64,000 nt of DNA from Metridium senile. Its lineage: Eukaryota; Cnidaria; Anthozoa; Actiniaria; Metridiidae. Numbering within the stretch: the first letter of the stretch is position 1; every line of letters begins with the position of its first letter. A program made the position numbers and the translations under genes. Positions 18,051 through 63,000 of the stretch are shown here, piece after piece. The DNA is taken from NCBI GenBank assembly GCA_949775045.1, contig OX459101.1:7350394-7414393 (forward strand). Direction: 5' to 3'. Below the pieces are notes generated by a model. The model saw only the letters and a list, made by a program, of their open reading frames with translations, was not told where the DNA came from and did no database searches.

Positions 18051-18322
18051 AAGGATAATGAACTGGGTAGAATCTCCCATGACCACCTATAAGTGTGCAG
18101 GTAGTAGGGATTGTTTTTAATTATTAAAATTAATATTAATTATCATAATTATTAGTATACTTATATTATATTTGTAATATATTATAATATAGGAAAGTAC
18201 TATAGGATAATGAACTGGGCATTTTCTTCCATAACCACCTATAATTTATTAATTGTGGTAGTAGGGATTGTTTTTTATTATCAAAATTAATATTAATTAT
18301 CATAATTATTAGTATACTTATA
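18051..18322. repeat. Tandem duplication of about 155 bp
   Basis: AGGATAATGAACTGGG...ACCACCTATAA...GTAGTAGGGATTGTTTTT and the AT-rich tail that follows occur at about 18051-18168 and again at about 18208-18322. The second copy differs by small substitutions. Confidence 0.8.
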
Positions 18323-18560
18323 AAATTCATGAATAATTAATGAGCAATTGACAAAAGAATTCACGTCCGTGTCGGAGGTTGTAAATCTCATACAGATTTC
18401 GTCCTGATTTGCATAAGTTTCAACTTGAATTTTCTCGGCCAGATTTACATTTATCTTGACAATTTTAGTAAAATATGAAAGAACTAACGTTGGACTTTCA
18501 TAAGTTCTATACAATATTCGCGTGCGATCTGTATCCGATATACAACGGCTCGTCTTCAAT
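18318..18560. mobile_element. Dispersed repeat, 'ATTCATGAATAATTAATGAG' family, copy 1
   Basis: About 240 bp shared with 20957-21130 and 54347-54620: ATTCATGAATAATTAATGAG, CCTGATTTGCATAAGTTT and ATTTTCTCGGCCAGATTTA occur in the same order. No protein and no clear tRNA boxes, so the class is unknown. Confidence 0.7.
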
Positions 18561-51000: not shown

Positions 51001-54000
51001 ATGATAGTGATTATAAAGATGGTTTTAAAGATGTTAACAAGAACACTAGTGAATCTTTCAACCATTATACTTGTGCCATAGAAAAACAATGAAGTGATTG
51101 ACTCCAATAAGATAGCAGAGAAGAAAGAAGCAAAAGAGGAAGAGAGTCCTATGAAGACTACACCAGCGAAGGAATCCAAAGAAAACACCATAGAAGAGAA
51201 AGAGAAAGACTCAGCTGAGGAAGGAGAAGCCAAGAGCATGGAAGTAGTGCAGTCATCCCCTGAACCAAGGCCATTACACAAGACATATTCATTATTTATG
51301 AGGAACATTCCACCTAATATATCTAAGATCGACATTGGTGGTGTAAGTATATACTTTAGATGTGGTTTTGATGCACACTTTGATCATATGCAAAATACCT
51401 TAGGACATAGCCTGCGTGGTGGCTCAAGGGGATTGGGGGAGGGAGAGGGAGGGGAGGGGTGGTGGGGAGAAGGAGGGAAGGAAGAGCCTGCAGAGAAACC
51501 CCACTTTTTTGATTCAAACTACCTCCACCAGATGGATATAGTTTTTGATTGGCTAAGATCGAAGAATCATTCATCACCTCAAGGTGCGAGGCACACATTC
51601 ACAACATGGTGCCATTTTATAGCGATTAGTCATCTTGAAAGCTGTTTGAATACTGTTTTATCTAAGCCAGAAAGCTCTGGTTTTATGTTTTCTTCATAAA
51701 CATGAGCAGAAGAAGACTTTTGGCTCTCCCTTCTTCCCTCTTCCCTCCCCTTCTCTCCGCAAACCCTAGAGCCGCCACACAGGCTACTTAGGACATTACC
51801 TGTTTTTATACGTAAAAAAAGGTTTTATACGCATTTTACGTTACCCCCTCTCCTGAATCACTTTTTGCAGTGTATTCATCACTATTTCTCATGTGTATTC
51901 TTTACTATAAACATTGTTACATTATGTTTGAATGGATCTGTTACTTATTCTCAGGCATGCAAAAGATTTCCTGGATTCCTTCGAGTTGCACTTTCAGATC
52001 CTAGCCCAGATAGAAGGTAAAATAATACAATGGAAATTGTCCATTGTGAAAAGCATAGTATAAATCATGAACATCCTGTAGAATGTAGAATGGAAATGTT
52101 GTGGTCAGTTTTATGTCATTTGTCATTTTTAAATTAGAATTCTTGAAACCACTTTTTAGTTCCTGAAATAGAGTATATCTATGAGTATAGACTCATGTAT
52201 GGTGGCCCATGGTTATCATCCATTTTTATACTATACTTTTCGAATTCTATTTCCATTTCTATTCTTATTTTAATTTCCTTTTCCATTTCCATTGTGATTT
52301 CTATTTTAATTCTGAATTCACGTTCAATTTTAGTATGAAATTGATTTCAAAAGTAAAGTCTAAAACGATTTATTTATTATTTTTATTATTACTAGTATTT
52401 TTGGTAAATTAAAATTAAATTTGCAGTTGATTTCTCTTTTTAATTCAAAAATTATCTCTCTCGGCCGGCCCATTGAAAAAAAAAAAAAAAATGAAAAGCT
52501 TCACGTGGCCCATCGTTATCATTATCAGCGTATCCCATGATCCTTTGCCTGTCACATTCCAGCACGTGATTTTAGTTATGGCGGATCAATGGAAGGATGA
52601 CGAAAGTTTACAACTGGATTTATCAAAGTACGTGAAAGAAAACTTGACTGAAAAGAAAAGAAATTTTAGACTTTGTGAGGAGAGATTACCCAAGTTATAG
52701 TTGGAGTCTTCCAACTCTCGATCGTCGTCTTCGTTTCTTTGGTATCAAATACATTGATTATGCTACCCCTCTTGAAGAAGTCTCAAATGCTATCGAAAAA
52801 GAGCTCGATGGGCCAGGACAATTACTCGGTTATAGAGCACTAAACCAGAAGTTACGTACTGAATATGATATAAAAGTTCCAAGACATTTAGTATACAACA
52901 TGATGGTGGAGATGGATCCAGAAGGTCTTGAAGCTAGAGGGCTTCAAAAGAAGAAAAAAAAGAAGAAAGTACCATTTGCATGTGAAGGTCCGCTAGCAGT
53001 AGTATCGTTGGATGGCCACGATAAACTTTGCGGTTACCAGAACTGGACTTTTCCTCTGGGTATCTACGGAGCTATCGATACATTTTCAAGGAAAATATTG
53101 TTTTTGTACATCTGTCATTCCAACTCAAATCCTGTTATTATCGGTAAACACTACCTTGAATACCTGTATGAAGCCCAAGTAATACCAAAATACTTGAGGA
53201 TTGATAAAGGAACGGAGACTGGAAAGATGGCTACACTTCATGCTTACCTTATAAACAGCAAGGCATCATGGACAATCCTCTTGACTCAGTGATATATGGT
53301 CCATCCACTTCGAACAAGATTGAGCGTCGGTGGCGCGATTTACACGAAAGACTTGAGCTCTACTTTAAAGTACAGTTAACCCAGTTATTGAGAGCAAACG
53401 ATTACGATCCTTATAACGACCTCCATAGGCAGTTGTTGTCTTATGTATTCATGCCAGTGATCCAGAAAGAATGCGATACATTTGTAAATGTTTGGAACAC
53501 TCATAGAATACGCGAGCAAGATAAATTATTACTACCAACAGGTGTACCCAACCATATGTTTTCTTTTCCAGACGATTATGGAGGTGAAAACATGGGGATC
53601 CCTGTAACAGTAGACGAGCTCAAAGAAGTAGCTGAACTTTCCGGTTTACTTGACATTGCAAGTCCAGATAATATATCTACACAAGTACGAAGTCAGTGTA
53701 AGAAGTTGATTGACAATCCTTCACAGCTAGAACCCCATCAAGCAAAGAACGCTTATTTATTTCTTAAGCAAAATGTAAAGTAGATTTTTGTTCATTGCTG
53801 GTATTACATGTAAATATCAATATAACTTGGTATTTTACGAGTCATTTGTTGCCCACGTAGCGTGCACTCGCAATGAATCGGAAATCACAGTTCAGTAAGT
53901 GATGTGAGAACATTGCAAAAGATTACTGATAATAAGCGTTATCCAAAGAAACATTTGTACTTTTGATGACATTTATAATCGAATCTTTTTATAAAATACA

Positions 54001-57000
54001 TTATTGTTTATTTTATAATTTATTGAATGTAGAAAAAGGGGAAACTTATAAAATTCCAAAGCCCAATGTATAAAGTGTTTTGTCTTGTCATCATTGTGAA
54101 ATCTACAACAGCCTAGTTTGATATGTACCGTGAGAACACTGCTTTCTCATTGGTTGATATTTTGAGCTTCTCAGATATGAATAAATTTGCAAGCAGTGTA
54201 TTTTTTGTGCTTGGTCGCTAAAAATAAAAACAATTTATTTATGGATGGCTTTGTTTCGATATTTAATCGACAATAGCGAATAACAAACGCATCTAATGTG
54301 CAGTCTTTCGAATCAGTTTTTTGAGCTTTTATGGTATATTAAAAAATTCATGAATAATTAATGAGACATTTTCAAAAGAAATCATGACCATGACGAGTGT
54401 TGTAAATCTGATACAACACTAGTGTTGTATATCCTGATTTGCATAAGTTTTAACTGGTAATTTTACGGCAAAATTTATTTTAATCTTGAAAATTTTGATA
54501 AAATATGAAAGAGCTAACCTAGTCATTTTTTAAGTAGTTTACAACATTCGCGTCCGTGTTGTATCGGCGATACAATCGCGCGCCTTCGGCTTGCGATTGT
54601 ATCTGCCGATACAACACGGCCGCTCATGTTGTAAACACTACATATAAACACTGTTATTTTTAAGCATTTTAAAAAACAAAGAAACAAAAAAGAACAAGCA
54701 AAACAACAAATAATTTCGTAAGCTGTTTATTAAACTCAACATTTAGATTTGTTTTATAAACTGTGAAATAAATATTGCCTATAAATGTGTATTAGATGTG
54801 TACTTGATACAACTAACAAAGGAAAACAATGAATTTGGGCCCTACAAGATATAAAATGTGTATTTAATTCGATAGCTATTTCACGGGTTTATGAAAACCA
54901 CTATCTATAGGCCCTTTTAATAAGTCCCGAAGTGTTGTGTTTTCCGCGCTTGACGTCAAATTTATTGTCTTGCAATTTTGTATGATATGAAAGGAATTGA
55001 AAATAATAAATTTGACGGCAAGCGCGGAAAACACAACACGTCGGGACTTCCTAAAAGGGTCTATAAAATTGTTCATCAGTTGTATTTTAAAGTAAAAATT
55101 TGTTAGATAGAGTGATTGCATAGTTGTGAAGTAAACAGTAATTATGTAAACTTTTAAAGAACTCAAATATTTCGTGTTAATTTAGTAACGCTGAAATCAA
55201 GTATAACGTAGTAATACATCGCTAGTTTAATTCAGTAACCAAAACGTTCATGCATTTCTTAAATGTCTTTAAGTTCCATCATTTCACAGAACTTATTACA
55301 CTGACTCGTGGACTTCTTTGAAGTGATTAATCCCTACGATTGAAAGGTTCCCTGCACAAAAAAAGAAATCCTCCGAGTCATCACTTTCTTCGCTCTGCTC
55401 GGGTATCTCGGTTGTAGCCAATTCAGGGTCGTAAAGATCATACTTGGCGCCCTGAATGTCTAAGATCATCAGCTTTTTCTTTGAATACAGATAACTGAAA
55501 TGAGCTAGACACTGTGCTTTTGCGAAGATATCATCATATTCCTTGCTTGGAGAGTCAATACAGTGTCCATCGTTATTGACGTATTTGGAAAAATCACCAG
55601 CTACGAACTCTTCTACTGTGACGGGACAATCTTCATACAGAGAAAAGTAAACTTTTCCATATTTAAATAAGTCACCAAACTCTACAGGGACTTTTGTTGC
55701 AAAACGCGCGGTAATATTTCTGGCGACAGCGTGCATTTGCACTTGTTTACGGGTGTGATTCTCTAGAGGCATTTGGAGTGTGTTAGTAATTGTGTCAATT
55801 GATTTCTTCGTGTACTTCTTAATTACCCATACTGTTGATTTCTTCGTGCACTTTGCTTTGAAAGCATCTCTAAAAGCGCCGCTTGCGAAAGCCGTTTTCT
55901 CCACTTCTACTTCAATACTTGGAATATCTATCCATTTGCAGCTCTCGACATTGAATATTTCTAACTTTAATATGGCGACTTGGGGTGGCTTGACAAGTTT
56001 ACCCGCTTTCATCAGGTCACCAATAGAAATTGATTTGGGATAAACTGTTCTAGGCATACATACTTGCCTAGTGCTAGATTGTGCTACGGCTTTGGATGGT
56101 GAAATCGGAACGGATTTAACCCCCTTTAGTACCGGTACTTGCTTCTTTGCATGTGAGAAATCTTCCTCCTTTGGTTGAAGAAAGCGAATGCAGTAAACTT
56201 TTTTCCCTTTTATTTGCTCCATTTTATTACAGGACGGCCCCCTATCTGATGCCAGAACATCACACGATCCTGTTGGGGCCTTGTAGAATCGCTCACAGGC
56301 TTCTTTTATGGTTTCGATGGACAATTCCTCGTATTCTGCGAACGGGACAAAGTCCCTTGTGTCCAAAGGTTCGTACTTTTTTAGCCGTCCTGAAGGCGTG
56401 GAAGCCATTCGTTGAACTAAAATATCATTCGGAACTTTGCCATGTCCTCGCTTCTCCTCAAATTCTCCTCTACCGTTCCTTTTTTGCCCGACTCTTTTTT
56501 CAAAATCATCCCAAGACTCTTTGAGCTTTCTTTTTTTCATTTTCGTGGCAATTTTTGCATCACATAAACAGCCAAGCGATCGCGACTAGTCTAACCGCAC
56601 GTGGTTTGTTATGCAACATATTCGCAAAGGATCATGGGATACGCTGATAATGATAACGATGGGCCACGTGAAGCTTTTCATTTTTTTTTTCAATGGGCCG
56701 GCCGAGCGAGATAATTTTTGAATTAAAAAGAGAAATCAACTGCAAATTTAATTTTAATTTACCAAAAATACTAGTAATAATAAAAATAATAAATAAAACG
56801 TTTTAGACTTTACTTTTGAAATCAATTTCATACTAAAATTGAACGTGAATTCAAAATTAAAATAGAAATCACAATGGAAATGGAAAAGGAAATTAAAATA
56901 AGAATAGAAATGGAAATAGAATTCGAAAAGTATAGTATAAAAATGGATGATAACCATGGGCCACCATACTCATGGTAGCTTTAAAATATAACAAAGGTTA

Positions 57001-60000
57001 CCTTAAGTGCATGGAACTTCACAGGAAATTTCTTATAATTCGACTTCAAACACTGTAGTCAGAAACTCCTAATGTTTACATTGGCAAATTTACCGCTGTG
57101 AAAATTTTGTAGTCGTTTGAATGCTGTTTGAATAAAATACTATTTTGCTAGTAAATGTTCCCAGGTTTTTGTGTGCACTTAGAAAAATGCTCAATATGTC
57201 TTATCAGGTTTTGTTTTTTTTGGTGATAGATTTTTTCGTAGAGGATGGATTACATTTGAAAGGAGTGTCAACATAAAAGAAATCTGCTGGGATCTGAACA
57301 ATGTTAGGGTAAGATTACTTATTGTTACAGCTGATTTCAAAAATGTTGTCAATCTGAATTTATTTGATAACTTTAGTTATAAAAAATGGTCTATTATCCT
57401 GGGGAGGGGGGGTGGGGGGGAGGGGGTATCATGTATGCTCATCAGAACTTTCAAAGACATCTCTGAAAGATGCTGAAAGTCCTTTCAAAGGGGTGTGACA
57501 TGGAGGTTTTATCATTCCTAAAAGATACCATAAAAAATGATAAACAAAGAAATAATTTACATGCAACTGTAATACCAGCTTTTGGTATTTACATCATACT
57601 CCCTCAGTGCCTTGTCGTCTTGGACAAGGACGAAGGGGCTGTGGTCCCATTGGCATTTACTTCAAGATGGATGTGAAACATCCTTTTGTACTGTTCTCAA
57701 AGAGTAGGGAAATGTTTGGGTCTTTCTCCGTGTATTCTTTGTTAGGTTTGATATCGTTTAACATTGGGTCTTTTACTCTTTCTATTGAATTATGTAGGCC
57801 GTCTGATGCATGGAGAAAGAGCTCTCTCTATTTTATATCAATTGCTGGTTCATAATTCTTTATTTCATTTGTGTCGTTTCAGTTTGTTTCAAGTCAATAC
57901 GTTCTTACTTACAACGTTTATACACACTAACTTAATCATTCAAAAAAATCCTATTTTCATCCCTTTCAAACAATGGGGGTTATGTAACCTACTAAAACAA
58001 TTACATAATCAAACAATATTTATGCTAATGAGCTTAGGTATATCAAATTGGTTCGCCCTAATGACGTTATTGTACAGAACACTCTTTTTCTCTTGGTACA
58101 GCAGTCTGTTCCCTAAATAATTGCAAGTATGTTTGAGCATGTAGTACATAACAATTATTTGATTGTATTATATCAGATAAAAGATACAGAGCTCAACCTG
58201 GTAGTCAATCGTGACCTGTCACGCCGTGTGAGGTCTGTTAGTGGAATCGCATTTGCTAAGCCAGTTATCAGAGAAGATATTAAGTTGGCTGCACAGTTGG
58301 TGAGAGTACTGGACAAAAAAGCTGCTGTTTATGATAAAGAAAAGAAAGTCGAAGAGGCAAATGGAGCTGAGAAAGAAAAGGAAACAGAGGTATGGAATTG
58401 ATGATGAGAATTCTGATACTAATATTGGTGGTGATAATGATGGTGATTATGATGGTCATGGTCATGGTCATGATAGATAATGATGATGGTGGTGGTAATG
58501 ATGATGATGATGGTGGTAATGATAGTTACAATGATGATGAGAATTGTGATACTAATATTGGTGGTGATAATGATGTTGATTATGATGGTCATGATAGATA
58601 ATGATGGTGGTGGTAATGATGATGATGGTGGTAATAATAGTTACAATGATGATGAGAATTGTGATACTAATATTGGTGATGATAATGATGGTGATTATGA
58701 TGGTGATGGTCATGATAGATAATGATGATGGTGGTGGTAATGATGATGGTGGTAATAATAGTTACAATAATGATGAGAATTGTGATACTAATATTGGTGG
58801 TGATAATGATGGTGATTATGATGGTGATGATAGATGATGATGGTGGCGGTAATGATGGTGGTAGTAATGATGGTGGTGGTAATAATAGTTACAATGATGA
58901 TGATAAATGATATGTCTTCACCTACTAATTCCCCACTGCACAGTCGGCACAAGTTGTGGTGATTCAATATCGTGAACTTGTTTTCTATACTAACCTGTGC
59001 TAAAGTCAACTCACAATGCAACATTCTGTCACCTTCTGCTTGTGATAGAGTTACTTATTTGTGGGACAAATGACATTCTCGTCATGATATCTCACCATCG
59101 TCATCCTCAAATAAATCTGATGGGCAGTATATGTAAGACTAAACATTTACATGTAGATGAGGCATGATCGTCCGGGGTGGTTTAGTCTTGAGAAAGACTG
59201 ATGGTGTTGATGTCTGTCCATTACACATTGCACCGACTATCACCAACGCCGACTACTTGAAAGCAGGTACACCGGCTTGTAACAAAAGCCACTTAACCGT
59301 TGCGTAACACTACCGGCTTCCTACAATAGACTTATTAATGACTTCAAGCATTCCGCTAATACAATGACTAACACCTGCCCACGCATCAACAACAACATAA
59401 CCGACTGAACCAGACACATAAATAAAACCGCTGTCTTTTCGTTTTCTTTACTCTGAAGATGACTTCCGGTCAGGTTGTCGAAACGTCAGACATCAACAAC
59501 ATCAGTCTTTTCAAGACTACACCACCCAGGATGATCATGCCTCATCTACATCGATTACACCTGGGATCAGACCATTCACTCTTTTACTAAACATTTAGTC
59601 TTCCTATCGTCTGATAAAGACTAGCAGTAGCAGTAGCAGTTGAAAAGTTGTGGTTCAAACCTTGGACATTTGTCATGGGACGGTTGTACGAAGGGTGGAT
59701 AAAGGGTTTATCCGCAGATAAAAGTTATCCACTGCATAGGTTTTTTTTATAGATTTTAAGGATTTATCTGGTGGACAGCGCTATTCAACCTTTCGTAAAA
59801 CCAGCCCCAGACAAACAAATACAGTAATAGCCCACGTATAAGAACCTGCATTTTAAGAACCTGTTAGGCTAAAATTTTCATTTTAAACCCCCTCCACATA
59901 AGAACCTATTAAGGTTTAAGTACCACTTATTTAAGAACCTTATAAGAACCTATTTAGGCTAAATTGAAAAATTCAGGTTCTTATACGTTGGCTATTACTA

Positions 60001-63000
60001 GAGCGTATTCATATATCCTATTTCTTGTATGCTAATGAGTTTTATTATATTCATGAGCATGAAATGCTCGTAACTGTGAACAAAAATTGCGAAGGCGACA
60101 AATGTGAACATTAACAATTGTTTCCTGTGTTTGATCTGAGTTGTATCATGTGAATCACTCAAGCATGATCTTTGCACTATTGTTTTCATGCTCATGAATA
60201 CAATAAAACTCATTAGCATACAAGAAATAGGTTATACGAATACGCTCTACTGTATCCACAATGAAGATATGATCATGATCATCTTTTTGCTGTGACTATT
60301 TGTTAATGCCATGCAATACCTTTACTCTTCAGAAGAAAGAGGAGAAGGAAGAAGGAGAGGAAGGACCCTCTGAAGACAAAGACTCATCCCTCAACATTCC
60401 CGACAACAACCCTATCATCGCCTCCCTCTCTGAAGATGCCACGGAAGAAGAAGAAGGTGAAGAAATGGAATTACTGGGAACCTCATCAACCACCAAGGAA
60501 ACTCCATTGGCTGAATCAGAGGTTGATTTGACAGTTGATGTCAATCTACTGCGTGTTTTAGATAGGTTGATATTGTATCTTCGTATTGTGCATTCTGTGG
60601 ATTACTACAATGGAGGTGATTATCCTCATGAAGATGAGATGCCTAATAGATGTGGGATCATCCATGTTAGAGGCAATGCACCTGAGAAGGCAACACAATC
60701 CGAAGGTACTTAACCTATTTCACATGCATGTCTCAATCATAGCACATACAGTCCACACTGAAGCCTGAAAATATTGTCAGTATTTTGTCTCTTGTTGTCG
60801 ATTTATCCATAGGATATCATGACAGTTTTCATAAGAAATGTGGAGGGCTTATCAGACTGCTCTTACAGCACACATTACATCCACACAGTTTACAAACATG
60901 ACAGTTTTACATGAGAAATGTAGAGGACTTATCAGACTGCTATTACAGCACACATTACATCCACGCAGTTTACAAACATGACAGTTTTACATGAGAAATG
61001 TAGAGGACTTATCAGACTGCTATTACAGCACACATTACAGCCACAGAGTTTACATTCATGATAGTTTTTGCATAAGAAATACATGACCAGACTATTGTAC
61101 CAGTTGACAATCCTCTCAAAACAACACAACAGGATATTGTAGATTCTATAGGGTAAGATTTGAAAGCAAATTGGACCTTGGGTTTTATTTTCTTATCCAA
61201 GAAGACAACACTAAGATCTAGTAAAGTGTCTTGCCTAAGTAATTTTCCAGGCCGTAATAGAGTACTCAAGTGTGACATCACAAAAACACAAATTTTGGCT
61301 TTTACAATTTTTAGTTACCAATTGCGAAAAGACGTTCACACGCCAAATTTGGCAAGAATTGGTCAATTATTAGCTGATATATGGCCACTTGAAGAGATAA
61401 TTTACCCATACAAATCACTGTTATTTGAACTGAGCCCAAAATACAGTGATTTGTATGGGGAAATTATATATTCAAGTGGCTATATCTCAGCTGCTATTTG
61501 ACGAATTCTGGTCAAATTTGCTACGTGAACATCCAGGTGATTTCGCGCGCGCACTTCCGGTTAGTATAAAGCCAATCAGAAGCATTTCTGTCGCATCGCC
61601 AACAGTTCCAAGATGGCGTCGTTCGAGAGAGTTGTTTCCTGTGTTAACCCACGATAAATACGTCCTTAAAATAACTTTATATTAAAATGTTCTATGTTAC
61701 TTGGACAATAAAAGTTCACTGCTGCTCTATCAGGGATAAAAAAGAATAAAAACAAAACGCAAATGCCTAAAAGTAAGCGAAATTGTTTTTGTCTCAAGGC
61801 GCCATTTTGGAACTATTCGTTTTGACAAACAATCCTTTTCGAAGCAAGATCACCTGGATCTTTTTTGATTGCCTATTAAAATTGAGAACCAAAAATATGA
61901 TATAGTGAAAATGCTATTTCATGACGTCATCCCTTGAGTATTCTATTGTTTTGATTGTAATGTCATGTGTTTGTTTTCAGTTCAAGAATGGCAGAAATCT
62001 TTAAAACAAAAGCTTGATCCCTACATGGAAGACAAGGAACCTATAAGTGATGAAGAAGTGATAAAAATGGGCAAGAAGGACCCAGAATCATATCCTTTGA
62101 AGACTTGACATCATAAATAAACCTTTTCATCTTCATCATCCTCACAACCTCTATTTTTATCATTATCATCAACACCATCATCATCATTATCATGCCAGTA
62201 TTATTCCCTGTTTATCCTTGACTGTTTTCACTGAAGTTGAAAAGTTTGTTGAAGCCAACACACAAGAGCTTGGGAAAGACAAATGGCTATGTCCCCTAAG
62301 TGGCAAGAAATTTAGAGGTCCAGACTTTGTCAGGAAACACATCTTTAACAAACAAGCTGACAAAGTAGAAGCTGTCAAACTCGAGGTAAGATAGTATGAC
62401 ATAAGAATCCTTTAGCGAGCTCACAAACTTAGCTCCAACACGAAGAAATTATTGACATGTTTGAACAACGCTCTTGACAACTTGTTGATAGATTCATAGT
62501 TGTAGTTGTATTAATTATAATGATGTTGATTAATAAGTTAATGATTCATGATGATAATGATGACTGATGAAGAGCATCACAATGATCATCATTTGGATGA
62601 GAATGATGCTTCTACTAATGCTGATGATGATAATGGCAATACCACTGCTGCTGTGATGATGATGATAATGATTCAGATGATGACTGTGATTGTGGTGGTG
62701 ATGATGATAATGGCAATACTACTGCTGATGTGATGATGATGATAATGATTCCAATGATGATGATGATTGTGGTGATGATGATGATAATGATTCCGATGAT
62801 GATGATGGTGATGATGATTGTGGTGATGATGATAATGATTATGATGAAGATGATGATTGTGGTGATGATGATGATGAAAAAGATTGTAATGGTATTAATG
62901 ATGACAATAAAAATGGTGATGGCAATAATGAGTGAAGAAAAAGATGATGATAGTTTTTACTTAGTTGATAGTTAGCTGTGCACAGTCGGCTCAAGTATTG

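Follow-up and report, generated by a model that had tools for sequence, protein, structure and literature searches.

A two-gene IS3EU-like transposon carrying a transposase and an alpha-kinase in an intron of Metridium senile

The window analysed here, a stretch of 64,000 nucleotides from Metridium senile (contig OX459101.1), contains a degenerate copy of a two-gene cut-and-paste transposon, apparently of IS3EU type, in which an alpha-kinase on balance probably serves as an accessory factor of the element and not as passive cargo. The association of this kinase with the transposase is old, and it recurs in a very divergent second family and in other animals.

Architecture of the element

The element lies in an intron of the host SRRT/ARS2 gene (Table 1), whose joined exon peptide matches the serrate RNA effector molecule homolog with E 1.7e-23. 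Its left and right terminal inverted repeats (TIRs) differ from each other by three substitutions and one 6-nt difference in poly-A length. A nested insertion of later date accounts for about 0.3 kb of its 4771 bp; it is absent from the other two-ended copies and has a 74% relative at window positions 18312-18557. The transposase and kinase genes are convergent and begin 30 and 84 bp, respectively, inside copies of the same TIR, so the TIRs probably double as promoters of both. The gap between them in the window copy holds no ORF longer than 96 aa; the self-complementary segment of the hairpin found there is also present in copy L011. The preliminary description had presented the element as complete, which holds for the inverted repeats, the CTCATG duplications and the presence of both genes but not for an intact transposase or a full-length kinase.

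Table 1. Features of the element and its host gene (window coordinates)
Feature	Position	Strand	Remarks
Intron of host SRRT/ARS2 gene, harbours the element	52017..57229	+	exons stop at 52016 and restart at 57230
DNA transposon	52198-56968		4771 bp, termini TATGG..CCATA
Left target-site duplication CTCATG	52192..52197	.	read from sequence
Left terminal inverted repeat	52198..52548	+	351 bp, opens with TATGGTGG
DDE transposase gene, broken	52578..53783	+	frame changes twice (frames 0-1-0)
Nested insertion, ~0.3 kb, palindromic parts	54346..54641	.	boundaries approximate
Inverted repeat (hairpin) between the two genes	54906..55065	.	66-nt arms
Alpha-kinase gene	55296..56540	-	414 codons, PF02816
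Right terminal inverted repeat	56624..56968	-	345 bp, closes with CCACCATA
Right target-site duplication CTCATG	56969..56974	.	read from sequence
Additional SRRT/ARS2 host exon	60300-60713		

The transposase and kinase genes

Two integrase-like ORFs are found on the plus strand (52675-53292 and 53268-53783), the second of which matches PF24764 (rva_4, integrase core) with E 1.1e-14, while the first reaches the same profile only below cut-off (E 2.9e-5). In the structural model the nearest folds are MuA, TnsB and retroviral integrases (E ~1e-4, with low TM-scores), and searching PDB sequences with a profile of the transposase gave no match at E 0.01. The earlier assignment to an IS3/integrase-like transposase agrees with the PF24764 match and with the nearness of the fold to DDE integrases. 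All 30 relatives in the alignment (30 of 30) keep the D, D and E residues; the best relative is 78% identical to the window transposase across its full length. The gene is not intact in this copy: from its start at 52578 the frame shifts twice. Bacterial IS3 elements use programmed frameshifting; this was rejected as the cause of the frame changes here, because three of the nine two-ended copies carry the transposase as a single open frame.

The 414-residue alpha-kinase described on the opposite strand matches PF02816 (Alpha_kinase) with E 1.7e-24 and 87.4 bits, above the cut-off of 21.3. It comprises a conserved N-terminal block (approximately residues 40-120) that gave no significant Pfam match, a variable linker and the alpha-kinase domain (219-412), and 63 relatives of 380-480 aa, picked by length out of the first 94 matches, align across both the block and the domain. 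K241 is conserved in 67 of 68 rows, window kinase included, and D361, Q363, G364 and D371 in all 68; these positions, which we take to be the catalytic residues of alpha-kinases, are all present in the translation of the window copy. The nearest fold to the kinase model is the TRPM7 kinase 1ia9 (E 1.6e-17). A fold search of BFVD returned nothing at E 0.001 or better, and a pattern scan of viral and bacterial/archaeal contig collections gave 11 and 43 pattern matches, among which no kinase relative was confirmed. The alpha-kinase domain stands as first described, but the C-terminus is incomplete: a frame lesion near 55300 stops the window ORF early and removes the C-terminal cysteines of the family, which 64 and 63 of the 68 rows keep, as does P0001, and which are presumably zinc-binding, as in TRPM7. 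Intact copies exist, though, the kinase being open in four of the nine two-ended copies.

Copies in the genome and a second family

A search of the whole genome (389 Mb) with the TIR, which yields lower bounds, gave at least 49 matches and nine two-ended copies, that of the window included. All nine contain sequence of both genes and have the termini TATGGTGG..CCACCATA; identical 6-bp duplications flank seven of them, and the flanks of different copies are unrelated to each other. The claim that a single pair of ends encloses both genes of one IS3EU-like element is upheld, and copies with the same ends but no kinase, as expected of a one-off capture, did not appear among the nine. Six of the eight other copies measure 4446-4468 bp, L015 4507 bp and L013 9169 bp, the last with several kb of extra (nested) sequence. 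The copies are recent, with L010, L011 and L012 99.9% identical to one another; both genes are open in L011 and L012, and most copies carry broken genes. L014 and L016 have two nonsense codons of the transposase in common at two different sites flanked by target-site duplications, indicating that the element can spread via transposase made elsewhere. No TIR pair with a deleted interior, that is, a non-autonomous derivative, was seen among the matches of this lower-bound search.

The second family (L037) has TIRs that are 85.6% alike, the same termini and the duplication CACTAC, and its genes are also convergent; the kinase is 36-37% identical and the transposase pieces are 46-58% identical to P0151. 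Among the matches listed (97 transposase rows), 13 reach at least 60% identity; 10 of these have a convergent kinase match within 15 kb, and the remaining three are half elements. In the range of 43-57% identity a kinase was detected within that distance for 1 of 20 rows, and at or below 37% for none of the 64. The kinase thus appears not to be needed by every related transposase, in a count made with a single kinase query that can miss diverged or intron-split kinases. Conversely, for 24 of the 38 kinase rows, fragments in many cases, the matches listed include no transposase within 15 kb. These counts cover 38 of 56 rows for the kinase and 97 of 103 for the transposase, the rest being extra fragments at loci already entered; for the transposase, 102 of 285 candidates were scored. 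Elsewhere in this genome, the position of the partner gene is occupied by a HECT ubiquitin-ligase gene in two distant relatives of the transposase; the ends of these HECT-bearing loci were looked for and not found.

Linkage in other animals and selection

Relatives of the kinase and the transposase share contigs in other animals, most clearly in Exaiptasia. Matches to the two proteins fell on contigs of exactly equal size in 10 cases, 8 of them on contigs above 10 kb, for which control offsets of 1-10 bases gave one coincidence in all; on short contigs such coincidences arise by chance, at about 2 per offset over all sizes. The comparison used the best 120 of 201, 228 and 457 matches, setting aside those that came without a contig size (7 of the 150 for the kinase, 4 of the 120 for the transposase). 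The agreement between the two histories that had been asked for was found when compared as distances (Mantel r 0.72, p ~0.001; 0.52 without an outlier). In both genes amino-acid changes are fewer than expected, a sign of purifying selection: N/S relative to expectation, with a transition bias of 4, was 0.34 for the transposase (p 0.01) and 0.49 for the kinase (p 0.03), the latter modest and only nominally significant. Copy similarity and N/S were compared in eight of the nine copies, leaving out the nested L013.

Proposed role of the kinase and alternatives

In the mechanism that we propose, the DDE integrase-like transposase would bind and cut the TIRs, leaving the 6-bp duplications, and the alpha-kinase, which has a conserved N-terminal block of its own, would act as an accessory factor for transposition. 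The kinase is probably nuclear and may phosphorylate the transposase or transpososome, or else host chromatin and repair proteins, which would let transposition or its repair succeed. Points against this accessory role are the related transposases that seem to do without a kinase, the spread of L014 and L016 with a broken transposase, the broken genes of most copies, the nominal significance of the kinase N/S value and the unpaired kinase rows.

A less probable reading, although one of real weight, is that the kinase counters silencing or is directed at the host, where it would modify chromatin or proteins of the defence and thereby keep the element from being repressed. Its fold is nearest that of TRPM7, whose kinase can act on chromatin, and in two IS3EU-like families of this genome, both of them distant, the partner position is held by a HECT-domain gene, which encodes another protein-modifying enzyme. 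Additionally, there are fungal IS3EU elements with both an alpha-kinase and a TET/JBP gene, the latter proposed as an anti-silencing tool in the passages concerned of Kojima 2025 (PMC12730594); on the other hand, those elements keep the kinase as well, so that TET and kinase are no simple substitutes. Passive cargo or a recent host gene carried along by chance is improbable: kinases of this kind with no transposase detected do occur in the genome (e.g., L038, L039 and the C7 remnants), but the kinase is present in all nine two-ended copies, the same layout is found with the far diverged kinase of the second family, linked pairs with agreeing distances exist in other animals and the catalytic residues are retained, which together largely refute this reading. 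Less likely still is a chance nesting, in which the kinase would come from a different element or from a host gene inserted here; insertions do occur in L013 and in the window copy, but each of the nine two-ended copies has the kinase at the same convergent position, which refutes such nesting, and the start of either gene lies a short way inward from its TIR.

The accessory role can be extended, tentatively and with considerable doubt, to the notion that animal IS3EU transposons, and perhaps fungal ones too from a common ancestor onwards, are two-component by design, with a transposase and a protein-modifying enzyme that has a nuclear target and makes transposition work. This enzyme would be an alpha-kinase in one large clade and a HECT ubiquitin ligase in its sister lineages within this genome. 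If so, a large share of the expansion of orphan alpha-kinase and HECT genes in such genomes would consist of transposon components wrongly annotated as belonging to the host. It is plausible that such elements explain alpha-kinase expansions in genomes; the family has been called highly expanded in rusts (PMC4469406). Cnidarian and tunicate proteins named TRPM6-like, eEF2K or myosin-heavy-chain-kinase-like can be transposon genes. In the literature searched, the pairing of transposase and alpha-kinase is mentioned for IS3EU elements of fungi alone; it is old, occurs widely among animals and is constrained, and the compact two-gene system makes a transposon's need for a protein kinase directly testable.

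Comparison with known systems

The kinase resembles the TRPM7 kinase domain (PDB 1ia9), MHCK A, eEF2K and ALPK1 in its fold and catalytic residues; unlike TRPM7 and other alpha-kinases, it has no channel or other known domain beside its N-terminal block. As in the IS3EU/GingerRoot superfamily, described in PMC10045372 with TA..TA termini, usually 6-bp duplications and a DDE transposase, perfect 6-bp duplications are found in seven of nine copies and CACTAC in the second family, and termini of the TA..TA or TAYGG..CCRTA form (PMC10045372, PMC12730594) in all nine copies and L037; the word "kinase" is absent from the main text of that account. Styx of Zymoseptoria (PMC10853768) and the "Intons" of Kapitonov (meeting report, PMC3520738) are fungal and said to be IS3EU-derived, and hold more genes than the element described here, none of them named alpha-kinase in the passages concerned; the ancestor of Styx is given there as an IS3EU element "encoding two proteins" (PMC10853768). 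No case of a protein kinase in an IS3EU-like element had been known to the preliminary description, but a passage of Kojima 2025 (PMC12730594) states that every TET-bearing IS3EU family of fungi carries a transposase gene and an oppositely oriented alpha-kinase gene. The element shares with them this orientation, the 6-bp duplications and the TAYGG..CCRTA termini, and differs in that a TET/JBP gene lies between the two genes there, where the longest intervening ORF here is 96 aa. It is an animal, two-gene member of the IS3EU kind already mentioned for fungi, whose kinases were compared by description only.

Structure of the element and its genomic setting

The element lies in an intron of a SRRT/ARS2 gene, identified by matching the peptide of its joined exons to solved SRRT (E 1.7e-23), and carries two convergent genes inside one mobile unit with IS3EU-type ends. 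Its preliminary description (351/345-bp terminal inverted repeats (TIRs), CTCATG flanks, an alpha-kinase on the minus strand and an integrase-type transposase on the plus strand) was borne out. By sequence, the top solved-structure match of the kinase is the TRPM7-type kinase 1ia9 (E 6.3e-9). This copy is damaged: the transposase passes through reading frames 0, 1 and 0 (two frame lesions), and the kinase ORF has 414 residues compared to 425 in P0001, the closest database sequence, which is identical to it as far as the lesion and whose C-terminus carries the family motif CNxxC (64 and 63 of the 68 aligned kinase rows, respectively, retain its two cysteines). A later insertion, nested in the transposon, is related to another palindrome-rich insertion of the window.

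Positions of the features (window coordinates unless a contig of the same genome, G000, is named)
Feature	Position	Strand	Details
Inverted repeats	52198-56968 (outer limits)		351 + 345 bp; 3 substitutions and one poly-A size change between arms
Duplication CTCATG	both flanks of 52198-56968		sequence
Alpha-kinase ORF	55296-56540	-	PF02816, E 1.7e-24
Integrase-type transposase	within element	+	PF24764 match
Host intron, SRRT/ARS2	52017-57229		contains the element
Additional SRRT/ARS2 exon	60300-60713		E 2.2e-27
Later insertion	54346-54641		about 0.3 kb
Related insertion	18312-18557		74% identical to the later insertion
One-ended L017, L018, L019			transposase only
One-ended L020-L024, L026	G000:C7:18262500-18847500		kinase remnants only
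One-ended L025			TIR only
L045/L048	G000:C9:135900-143600		open distant IS3EU-like transposase, 30% identical to query; convergent HECT-domain gene downstream
L046/L049	G000:C5:4271300-4279000		open distant IS3EU-like transposase, 32% identical to query; convergent HECT-domain gene downstream

Copies in the same genome

A search of the same genome (389 Mb, 169 contigs) with the left TIR gave at least 49 matches. In nine copies, including that of the window, both ends are present with high identity, and each of the nine contains sequence of the two genes, arranged convergently in the same way. Identical 6-bp flanks, every duplication of different sequence, were found in seven of them (exceptions L009 and L012), and since the sequences flanking different copies are unrelated, these are separate insertions. 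The kinase is open at full length in four two-ended copies (L011, L012, L015 and L016) and the transposase in three (L010, L011 and L012, which are 99.9% identical). The reading of the kinase as part of the transposon, against which copies with the same ends and no kinase would speak, held up: no such copy was among those found by the TIR search of the 389-Mb genome, and the single-gene copies all lack one end within the fetched stretch. Six one-ended relatives are clustered on one contig; their kinase halves are decayed, and their TIRs are for the most part 77–87% identical. Two of these relatives (L021 and L022) have equal match scores and may reflect a local duplication. In L011, L012 and the window copy (at 52489), the open frames of both genes reach an upstream ATG inside the TIR, at element position 291 counted from each end. 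The two proteins would then begin with an identical leader, which is probably a coincidence.

Two substitutions and some small gaps separate L014 from L016. Because two nonsense codons in the transposase are common to both, yet they occupy two different sites, each with its own perfect duplication, the simplest reading is that they probably moved in trans after transposase loss; the kinase is still open in L016 and broken by a small gap in L014.

Selection and constraint

Across eight copies, 20 amino-acid-changing (one a stop) and 15 silent changes were counted in the kinase, and 11 (two of them stops) and 12 in the transposase. Setting the transition bias at 4, close to what was observed (40 transitions vs 18 transversions), gave ratios to expectation of 0.49 for the kinase (p 0.03) and 0.34 for the transposase (p 0.01); with no bias they were 0.35 (p 0.0025) and 0.24 (p 0.0008) respectively. 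Taken alone, the kinase signal appears modest. The better indication of constraint comes from conservation across families: 63 relatives of 380–480 aa, picked on length among the first 94 hits, are alignable end to end, with 17 invariant columns in the alignment of 68 rows and a further conserved block spanning about residues 44–120, for which a Pfam search gave no significant match. This N-terminal block is confidently modelled in the predicted kinase structure (mean pLDDT 83.4, pTM 0.59), whose 43 PDB matches within an E limit of 0.001 are all alpha-kinases (TRPM7-type, MHCK A, eEF2K, Entamoeba and ALPK1). For the transposase model (pLDDT 86.5, pTM 0.83), MuA, TnsB and retroviral integrases came up at E about 1e-4; the query TM-scores were no more than about 0.25–0.35.

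Age and distribution of the pairing

Sequence comparisons indicate that the pairing of kinase and transposase is old. A second family in the genome, L037 on contig 15, shows TIRs 85.6% alike with termini TATGGTGG..CCACCATA and a CACTAC duplication; its open kinase is only 36–37% identical, and its transposase, present as several pieces, is 46–58% identical to P0151. In a midpoint-rooted kinase tree of 40 chosen rows, where its branch is long, L037 groups with the Exaiptasia kinase and four others, apart from the window kinase (split support 100/100). In public proteins, linkage was judged only by contigs of identical size (143 kinase and 116 transposase rows among the matches listed), which gave ten pairs, eight of them on contigs over 10 kb, where control offsets of 1 to 10 bases produced one coincidence in total. 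The same offsets over all sizes gave 21, so chance may account for the pairs on the two short contigs, of 2842 and 5435 bases. Exaiptasia LOC110237033 and LOC110237035 share one 374-kb scaffold; the Ciona pair shares a 12-Mb sequence, a weak linkage. Kinase and transposase distances agree over the ten pairs plus the window (Mantel r 0.72, p about 0.001). They also do so when Exaiptasia is dropped (r 0.52, p 0.007) and when the set is cut to 7 rows, those on contigs under 200 kb together with Exaiptasia and the window (r 0.69, p 0.03). Shared host history would be expected to produce this pattern as well. Stretches 43–59% identical to the N-terminal kinase block alone occur at L040–L042; L040 is convergent with a transposase 5.7 kb away (66% identical to the query), perhaps a third family.

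Among the matches listed, 97 transposase rows of the genome were examined for a convergent kinase within 15 kb. It was found in 10 of the 13 rows at ≥60% identity (nine of the ten checked for ends, the other lying on C14), the remaining three being half elements; the single-query search, which distant or intron-split kinases can escape, gave 1 of 20 rows at 43–57% and 0 of 64 at 37% or less. The kinase looks like a property of one transposase clade, not of all related transposases. Three kinase-free loci were read. Two of them, from the 64 rows, represent two families with HECT-domain neighbours (PF00632, ubiquitin ligase; E 4.3e-8 in L046 and 9e-4, under the cut-off, in L045); at the third, L047, a broken transposase (50% identical) lies close to a YqaJ-like ORF. 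Element ends were looked for at these three loci and not found, so membership of the HECT genes in transposons is a lead only.

Proposed role and comparison with known systems

The transposase would cut and join at the TIRs, with the kinase as a putative helper of the element. The long-term retention of catalytic residues, the concordance with the transposase and another protein-modifying enzyme beside distant relatives speak for a kinase function useful to the element. Most weight would go to a nuclear target tied to transposition, be it the transposase, repair or chromatin, without choice among these.

In the literature searched, which took in PMC6505742, PMC5753468, PMC5295586 and PMC4150398 besides the papers cited below, with Repbase and most subscription journals outside its scope, no description was found of an animal transposon with this kind of transposase and an alpha-kinase. 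IS3EU elements have TA..TA termini and usually 6-bp duplications, according to an excerpt of PMC10045372. In fungi, larger IS3EU-derived elements appear in excerpts of PMC10853768 and PMC3520738, and the alpha-kinase family is called highly expanded in rusts in part of PMC4469406, where a table row gives 79 and 39 in two columns, presumed to be the two rusts. Fungal TET-bearing IS3EU elements carry a transposase and an alpha-kinase in opposite orientations (Kojima, 2025; PMC12730594).
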